A DNA stretch of 64,000 nucleotides from an uncultured Pelagibacteraceae bacterium. GTDB lineage: Bacteria > Pseudomonadota > Alphaproteobacteria > Pelagibacterales > Pelagibacteraceae. The DNA lies in contig CACJLN010000002.1 in the NCBI GenBank assembly GCA_902594255.1, positions 62,001-126,000 on the forward strand, read 5' to 3'. The position numbers were made by a program, and so were the translations under genes. Of this stretch, positions 12,719 to 14,425 are shown in pieces. The notes below the pieces were generated by a model that was given only the letters and a program-made list of their open reading frames with translations, did no database searches and was not told the DNA's origin. Numbering within the stretch: the stretch's first letter is position 1; each line of letters begins with the position of its first letter.

Positions 12719-12880
12719 TTAGTTTGAGTCGTTAAGGGTCTCAACTAGATCTTGCATTCCACTTGAACCCCAATCACAATGATCATCTCTCATGTAAATT
12801 CCCCTGCTATTATGTCTAGCAAGGTCTTCATGTCTTATGATTTGAGCCTCATTATCACTATTTTTTAATTTATCAGTCAT
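12719..12880 (-). CDS. 53-aa hypothetical protein upstream of aceA
   Basis: This hand-translated ORF lies between aceA and the divergent regulator and is too short for the track. The product is polar and acidic/histidine-containing (DDHCDWGSSG in the middle), with no membrane segment. Its ATG sits at the edge of the ATTTACAA operator array, with no clear Shine-Dalgarno. It would be co-transcribed with aceA, which starts 64 nt downstream. I do not recognise the family. It could be a small protein or part of the aceA leader. Confidence 0.5.
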   Translation of the reverse strand: MTDKLKNSDNEAQIIRHEDLARHNSRGIYMRDDHCDWGSSGMQDLVETLNDSN

Positions 12881-12991
12881 GTAAATCTTATAATTTACAA
12901 GATTTACAAAATCTATAAAAAAGTAAAAAAAGCTTGTAAATAATGGAAAAATATTGTAAATTTAAATTTACAAAATTTACAAATGGTAAAT
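12880..12991. promoter_or_regulatory. Operator array (ATTTACAA / TTGTAAAT sites) between aceA and the regulator gene
   Basis: Six exact 8-bp copies plus two partial ones lie within about 110 bp. Copies at 12893 and 12902, and at 12966 and 12975, form two direct-repeat pairs with a 9-bp period. Inverted copies (TTGTAAAT) lie at 12934 and 12954. Partial copies overlap both start codons (TGTAAAT at 12880 and TGGTAAAT at 12984). The sites resemble the TTTGCAAA-type boxes reported for RamB-family regulators. Confidence 0.8.
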
Positions 12992-14425
12992 ATGAGTCAA
13001 ATTAATTTAAAAATTGGCCCGAAAATCAAGGCTTTTAGAAGACAGCTTGGTCTTCAAGCTAATAAATTAGCTGATGAGTTAAATATATCGCCAAGCTATT
13101 TGAATTTAATTGAGGGAGGAAAAAGAAAAATAGATGGCGACCTTCTGTTAAAAATTTGTGAAAAATTAAATATTGAGCTTTCGCAACTAACATCAAAAAC
13201 TGATTTAAACTTGGAAAATACCTTATCTGAAATTTTAGATGATGAATTATTTGAAGATTTGGACATTCTTGGACCAGAGGTAAAAGATTTAGTAGGGACA
13301 AACCCCAAAATTGGCAAGGCAATAGTAAGATTAGGCGATATTTTAAAAAAGAAGGATCATGAGCTTGTTAATAAAATTGAAAAAATGTCTGGTAAAATTG
13401 TTGATAATAGAAAAAACTCCTTTCCAGGCGAGGTAATCTCAGATTTTTTACAAGAAAACAAAAATTATTTTCCAAAACTCGAAGAATTTGCTAACAAAGT
13501 CTTTGAAAAAGTTCAAAAAAATAATCGAACTAGATATATAGCACTCTGCGAATATTTAAACTCAGAGTATAATATTAATGTTAAGGATGTTATTCCAGAT
13601 CAAGATAAGTTGTTTTCCAAAATATTTAACAAAAACAAAAGAGAACTTTTACTTAGTGATTACAGCTCATTAGAGACAAAGAAACTTCATGCTGCGGCCC
13701 AAATAGCTCAGGAAGGTGCAAATGATGACATAGAACACTACCTGTCTAAATTTACCTTTCCATCTGAAGAGTCGAAAAAATTAAGTAAAGTTGCTTTACT
13801 TAATTACTGTGGAGCTGCAATACTTATGCCTTACAAGCCTTTTCACTCAGAATGTAAAAAACTTAAATATGATCTAGAGCTATTACAAAATACTTTTGCA
13901 ACTTCCTTTGAGCAAGTGGCTCACAGGGTAACGTGTTTACAGGATCCAAAATTACCAGGTATTCCATTTCACTTTTTAAGAGTAGACATGGCAGGAAATA
14001 TTTCAAAAAGATTTTCATTATCAGGTATAGAAATCCCGAGATATGGAGGAGCGTGTCCAAGATGGAATGTTTATTCAGCATTTACAAGACCTGGAGTTAT
14101 TCAGGCTGCAGTTAGTAAAATGACAAACGGTGAAAAATATGTTTGTATTGCGAGAACAGTTGAAAAAGGCATTGGCAGATTTGGACAATCAAAAAGCATT
14201 TTGTCTATTGGTCTTGGATGTGAAGCAAAGTATGCTAAAGATTTTGTTTATACAGAAAATGTGAATATTAACGATAAATCAAGTGAAATACCAATTGGAG
14301 TATCGTGCAGAACATGCGATAGATTAGACTGTTCCCAAAGAGCCTTTCCTCCTTTACATAAAAAATTTGATGTTGATATTAATTCAAGGGGTGTCTCTGT
14401 CTATGTTGGAGATAAAAGTAAATAA
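12983..14425 (+). CDS. ScfR/RamB-family transcriptional regulator (XRE helix-turn-helix, acyl-CoA type)
   Basis: This 480-aa regulator has an N-terminal XRE helix-turn-helix (KIKAFRRQLGLQANKLADELNIS...YLNLIEGGKRK, residues 12-55). The large C-terminal part is of the short-chain fatty acyl-CoA regulator type, and its end contains the conserved Cys-rich segment GVSCRTCDRLDCSQRAFPP. Known relatives (RamB, PccR) sense acyl-CoA status and control glyoxylate-cycle or propionyl-CoA genes. Here it is divergent from isocitrate lyase, which is therefore the likely target, along with itself. ATG 12983 and ATG 12992 are both possible starts; the operator sites run into the first codons. Confidence 0.88.
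   Translation: MVNMSQINLKIGPKIKAFRRQLGLQANKLADELNISPSYLNLIEGGKRKIDGDLLLKICEKLNIELSQLTSKTDLNLENTLSEILDDELFEDLDILGPEVKDLVGTNPKIGKAIVRLGDILKKKDHELVNKIEKMSGKIVDNRKNSFPGEVISDFLQENKNYFPKLEEFANKVFEKVQKNNRTRYIALCEYLNSEYNINVKDVIPDQDKLFSKIFNKNKRELLLSDYSSLETKKLHAAAQIAQEGANDDIEHYLSKFTFPSEESKKLSKVALLNYCGAAILMPYKPFHSECKKLKYDLELLQNTFATSFEQVAHRVTCLQDPKLPGIPFHFLRVDMAGNISKRFSLSGIEIPRYGGACPRWNVYSAFTRPGVIQAAVSKMTNGEKYVCIARTVEKGIGRFGQSKSILSIGLGCEAKYAKDFVYTENVNINDKSSEIPIGVSCRTCDRLDCSQRAFPPLHKKFDVDINSRGVSVYVGDKSK

Follow-up and report, generated by a model that had tools for sequence, protein, structure and literature searches.

We found that a 102-bp interval (12881-12982) in a stretch of SAR11 DNA contains six exact copies of the octamer ATTTACAA, together spanning 12893-12982. 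The whole stretch that was analysed, 64,000 nucleotides long, is called the window below. The array is very likely the operator of the adjacent ScfR-type regulator, predicted to serve divergently a small ORF-aceA transcript on one side and the regulator gene on the other. A full-text search of the literature revealed no experimentally defined operator for any SAR11 regulator. The predicted operator is strongly conserved and its regulator is of a known kind, and no description of it was found in the literature searched. Positions of the genes and boxes are listed in Table 1.

Table 1. Genes and predicted boxes at the aceA-regulator locus (positions in the window).
Feature	Position	Strand	Remarks
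aceA, isocitrate lyase, 424 aa	11381..12655	-	NCBIfam NF011645, 730 bits (cut-off 562)
Conserved 53-aa small ORF	12719..12880	-	Core RGIYMRDDHCDWGSSGM; first gene on the aceA side of the array
Box A1, ATTTACAA	12893..12900	+	Exact match; opens tandem pair A, 9-bp period; TTTACA columns near-invariant, 7th base variable
Box A2, ATTTACAA	12902..12909	+	Exact match; closes tandem pair A; near-invariant
Box B1, ATTTACAA (TTGTAAAT on the + strand)	12934..12941	-	Exact match; lone inverted box; 7/7 core columns invariant in 78 distinct sequences
Box B2, ATTTACAA (TTGTAAAT on the + strand)	12954..12961	-	Exact match; 20 bp from B1; core near-invariant
Box C1, ATTTACAA	12966..12973	+	Exact match; opens tandem pair C; near-invariant
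Box C2, ATTTACAA	12975..12982	+	Exact match; closes tandem pair C; adjoins the regulator start; TTTAC near-invariant, final two bases looser
ScfR-type regulator	12992..14425	+	HTH_3, IrrE/M78-like and ScfRs domains; longest ORF from 12983; start at 12992 probable

Exact matching recovered the arrangement described in the sequence-only reading, i.e. six exact copies forming two direct pairs with a 9-bp period plus inverted copies. Pairs A and C are the two same-strand pairs, each 17 bp long (TTTACAAr-A-TTTACAAa). That reading had also placed partial copies at both start codons. Both are present in this DNA, the one at the regulator start as GGTAAATATG. In relatives the latter is mostly AGAAAATATG, and the copy at the small-ORF start, kept in most of them, is missing in one locus (L061) and in a complete congeneric genome (G012). 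Because both are unsteady among relatives, neither is a firm member of the array. The array had been placed between aceA and the regulator, but it does not directly adjoin aceA: the 53-aa ORF, which the sequence-only reading did not mention, intervenes.

Comparison with shuffled DNA had been set beforehand as a test, and site density exceeded it: none of 20,000 dinucleotide-preserving shuffles of the 102-bp interval contained at least four copies, and the shuffle maximum was three. TTTACA-N3-TTTACA occurs twice in the 64-kb window, both times in the array, against an expected 0.05. ATTTACAA is not enriched across the window as a whole (15 copies observed vs 12.2 expected); the array is thus a local cluster.

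The sites are also conserved in relatives that keep both genes, the box bases being near-invariant and the spacing practically fixed. aceA, the small ORF and the regulator were kept together in all 80 related loci found, with exactly 102 bp between the two start points in all but one of them. Among 127 Pelagibacter loci, the distance from pair A to pair C was 73 bp in 119 and 74 bp in 6, and the remaining two had a single point change in pair C. In all 125 loci with a 73- or 74-bp distance, B1 and B2 lay 31 bp and 11 bp, respectively, before pair C. With boxes so rigidly spaced, a dimer or tetramer may bind the array cooperatively. Mean column entropy was 0.07 bits for the boxes vs 0.47 bits for the spacers (Mann-Whitney p about 1e-7), and the array persisted in Pelagibacter loci whose regulator was 77-84% identical and whose small ORF was about 40-50% identical.

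Three other genera (g5, g6 and g7), in which the regulator is about 59% identical, retained tandem pair A and box B1, with one mismatch in box A2 of g7. The distance from A1 to B1 in these genera is 51 bp vs 41 bp in Pelagibacter, or about one helical turn more. The regulator-side pair of g5 and g7 is flipped relative to Pelagibacter and box B2 was not seen there, so not every box is essential. No regulator-side pair was observed in the stretch read for g6. In three loci (L255, L257 and L258) the inverted regulator-side tandem pair lies near a promoter-like TTGACT-16/17-TAAATT. One locus of a further genus (L259; genome G328, genus g10) has aceA without ScfR, small ORF or boxes and is a natural control.

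The regulator shows the domain order of the ScfR family: an N-terminal HTH (HTH_3, 44.7 bits), an IrrE/M78-like middle domain (Peptidase_M78, 40.5 bits) and a C-terminal ScfRs domain (200.3 bits), all above the Pfam cut-offs. It scored 367 bits against the NCBIfam RamB equivalog NF038139, whose cut-off is 700. Of the label "ScfR/RamB-type" given earlier, ScfR was therefore retained and RamB dropped, and we use the name ScfR-type; linkage to a glyoxylate-cycle gene, as in RamB, is present. Since the ATG at 12983 is missing in most relatives, translation probably starts at 12992. The closest solved structures are those of M. tuberculosis PrpR (6CZ6/6CYJ, E about 8e-64). All four [4Fe-4S] cysteines of PrpR are present in 133 of 133 orthologues (GxCPxW and CX2CX4C, aligned to PrpR 6CZ6); five of these loci failed the script's cysteine pattern solely at the residue after the third Cys. 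The sequence-only reading had not noted this full cysteine set. This is the only ScfR gene in its genome. It adjoins the array in every Pelagibacter locus examined, and is divergent from small ORF-aceA in 80/80 loci and from aceA in g5-g7.

Members of the ScfR family bind CoA or acyl-CoA in a pocket whose opening needs an intact [4Fe-4S] cluster, and the bound ligand alters their DNA binding or oligomeric state. PccR of Rhodobacter sphaeroides, which belongs to this family, controls propionyl-CoA carboxylase and has paired TTTGCAAA-like boxes whose spacing differs from that in SAR11. PrpR ligates its [4Fe-4S] cluster through a single cysteine in the GAF-like domain plus C-X2-C-X4-C; the cluster keeps the CoA pocket open, and induction is lost when these cysteines are mutated (PMC6765138). 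The M. tuberculosis site upstream of icl1 is 17 bp long, TTTGCAAA-N-TTTGCgAA, with two 8-bp boxes one base apart (PMC6765138). The M. tuberculosis PrpR/RamB sites at prpD and icl1 thus resemble SAR11 pairs A and C in having tandem 8-bp boxes with a 9-bp period, and the likeness to TTTGCAAA boxes of relatives proposed in the sequence-only reading extends to this period. The array is a candidate for the ScfR operator type: boxes are paired and the period agrees, and one base of the box differs (TTTACAAA for the TTTGCAAA of M. tuberculosis). The regulators share HTH, IrrE-like and CoA-binding GAF-like domains with [4Fe-4S], and ramB lies near icl1 as the SAR11 regulator lies by aceA. M. tuberculosis has one tandem site, whereas SAR11 has two plus two inverted single boxes, and no small ORF of the SAR11 kind has been described there.

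Paracoccus denitrificans RamB (class 2) is an alphaproteobacterial ScfR protein that, as in SAR11, is divergent from glyoxylate-cycle genes. Acting from the intergenic region between the divergent genes, it regulates the glyoxylate operon as both activator and repressor; it also binds CoA esters and carries a [4Fe-4S] cluster (PMC10370305). It responds to intermediates of the ethylmalonyl-CoA pathway, and its intergenic region has two near-identical boxes with 18 bp between them. The operon consists of malate synthase and icl, whereas malate synthase in genome G012 is located elsewhere and lacks boxes.

According to the explanation we prefer, pairs A and C would be 17-bp tandem sites of the kind bound by PrpR/RamB, one by each gene, with the lone inverted boxes B1 and B2 between them. 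The left transcript would carry small ORF-aceA and the right transcript the regulator itself, which would then be autoregulated. The output would depend on carbon state, and possibly on iron state, through the CoA/acyl-CoA pocket and the [4Fe-4S] cluster. Binding of the regulator to the boxes, autoregulation, the ligand and the iron input are what we infer from these comparisons. Against the predicted operator, the A of the SAR11 box stands in place of the G of characterised ScfR boxes, and inverted singles make up two of the six boxes. To our knowledge, inverted single boxes are not known from PrpR/RamB sites.

To assess uniqueness, we used the complete genome G012 (1.34 Mb, 5,000 bases masked), which contains 822 copies of TTTACAA. 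Nowhere but in the array did more than three TTTACAA fall within 105 bp; placed at random, they would form 0.025 clusters of four per genome. Clusters of three numbered 3, vs 1.5 by chance, and all were within or overlapped coding frames. The window's own genome contains two further exact tandem pairs, both inside coding frames. Further clusters had been expected at malate synthase or propionate genes. None was found in G012, where the upstream regions of malate synthase, a prpB-like gene and three Fur-family genes contain no TTTACAA boxes. A riboswitch at malate synthase was also considered and rejected, as the loci of both genomes gave no Rfam match. Because there is no second cluster and the candidate genes are boxless in G012, the expected wider regulon was not observed; the prediction is of a local switch devoted to the isocitrate-lyase step rather than of a global regulator.

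The assignment of aceA as isocitrate lyase in the sequence-only reading agreed with its NCBIfam match. The small ORF encodes 53 aa in 81 of 81 loci, with a near-invariant core (DDHCDWGSSG) and with substitutions concentrated in third codon positions (257/283/975 by position). It matched no Pfam or NCBIfam family, and its AlphaFold2 model was uninformative (mean pLDDT 59). Of 297 genomes of the order, 163 have a homologue. Beyond the family, none was detected in 289 genomes of the class at E 0.01, and the matches that a broader profile gave there were all weak and short. The best class-level match (genome G590, E 2.8e-4), a short DEDDWGGSG with no aceA or ScfR in the 3 kb read, was rejected as unrelated. 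Within the genomes searched, the small ORF is confined to this bacterial family. Diverged small ORFs that keep the DWG-SG core occur in g7 and g5. A second, different small ORF occurs upstream of aceA in one g5 locus (L255, MRREKNNIESNCVSFDDACFDETN...) and one g6 locus (L256, MTHREKHNIESNCVSYNDDCYNETN...); it lies beside the first one in g5, and in g6 replaces it and is unrelated to it.

In the order, the small ORF, ScfR and isocitrate lyase were found in 163, 167 and 167 of the 297 genomes, respectively, and in 97, 100 and 100 of the 150 genomes that are at least 90% complete. Genomes listed as lacking one of the three mostly lack all three. The aceA-small ORF-ScfR block is therefore present or absent largely as a unit, although assembly gaps can also drop all three genes at once because they are physically linked. 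On its aceA side the block meets a variable region, since the genes beyond aceA differ among close relatives (loci L002-L081; 8 of 74 have nrdB). Isocitrate lyase has a mosaic distribution in subclade IIIa (PMC10030771).

Several other explanations of the array were weighed. The boxes could be bound by another regulator, for instance an iron regulator of the Fur/Irr type, and the ScfR gene could be no more than one of its targets. In front of SAR11_1242 and of fur, Steindler et al. noted relaxed Fur-box-like motifs, not further specified, that may be variants of the Fur box (PMC3090418), and aceA and SAR11_1242 respond weakly to iron. We consider this unlikely: the box resembles ScfR boxes down to the 9-bp period, the three Fur-family genes of G012 have no upstream TTTACAA, and the array occurs once in the scanned genome and always by the ScfR gene, which fits a local autoregulator rather than a global iron regulator. 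Alternatively, the conserved TTTACA words could serve mainly as -35 elements in divergent promoters that overlap. B1 reads TTTACA on the minus strand, lies 17 bp upstream of TATAGA and, as a guess by eye, is possibly a -35 element for small ORF-aceA. Six copies and two 9-bp tandems nevertheless exceed the needs of two promoters. A promoter scan at the array found no convincing promoter, did not return TTTACA-17-TATAGA and gave no -10 at 16-18 bp for most boxes, and this alternative is very unlikely.

A role in RNA would require the inverted copies to form hairpins in the leader transcript, acting as an attenuator or in translational control. The interval of the window does fold better than its shuffles (z -3.75). 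However, the consensus fold of 19 diverse sequences is weak (-4.78 kcal/mol) with compensatory change in 0 of 12 pairs, and no terminator-like element was found at the array. In addition, four of the six boxes are in same-orientation tandems that need no pairing, and the box bases are conserved as words. Such hairpins are accordingly an extremely doubtful explanation. A further reading is chance AT-rich repetition or recent slippage without function, in favour of which the AT content of the interval is very high and copies of ATTTACAA are not uncommon in the window. This reading, for which we see virtually no room, is contradicted by the shuffles and by the uniqueness of the array in the whole G012 genome, and is refuted by conservation: in 125 loci and several genera the boxes are kept and the spacers vary. 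The local ScfR operator remains the preferred explanation.

Published expression data bear on the iron input of this predicted operator. In iron-limitation arrays of HTCC1062, aceA (SAR11_1240) was up 1.58-fold (p 0.091) and the neighbouring regulator SAR11_1242 was up 1.60-fold (p 0.054) (PMC2864753). SAR11_1241, which from the numbering may be the small ORF, is absent from that listing (PMC2864753). SAR11 isocitrate lyase expression is reported to be higher in low-iron Southern Ocean water (PMC6618146), and SAR11_1242 was higher in light than in dark (PMC3090418). The rises under iron limitation suggest that Fe-S status may be an input of the regulator. We treat the iron input as hypothetical because the changes are small, the p-values are weak and aceA in HTCC1062 lies near the strongly iron-induced sfu iron-uptake genes. 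An iron-and-carbon switch may be envisaged in which loss of [4Fe-4S] when iron is limiting would alter the regulator's hold on the six-box operator and turn on isocitrate lyase, the 53-aa protein being a further component that modulates the regulator or isocitrate lyase. We put this forward tentatively, as an idea with more chance of being wrong than right.

SAR11 bacteria are the most numerous marine heterotrophs and have few transcription factors. The array yields a precise operator prediction, box by box open to testing, for a central-carbon regulator in SAR11, and the locus draws attention to a conserved microprotein whose gene accompanies that of isocitrate lyase. The iron-and-carbon switch offers a candidate route from iron scarcity to a raised glyoxylate bypass in situ; if true, it would be a molecular cause of the higher SAR11 isocitrate lyase expression in the iron-poor ocean.
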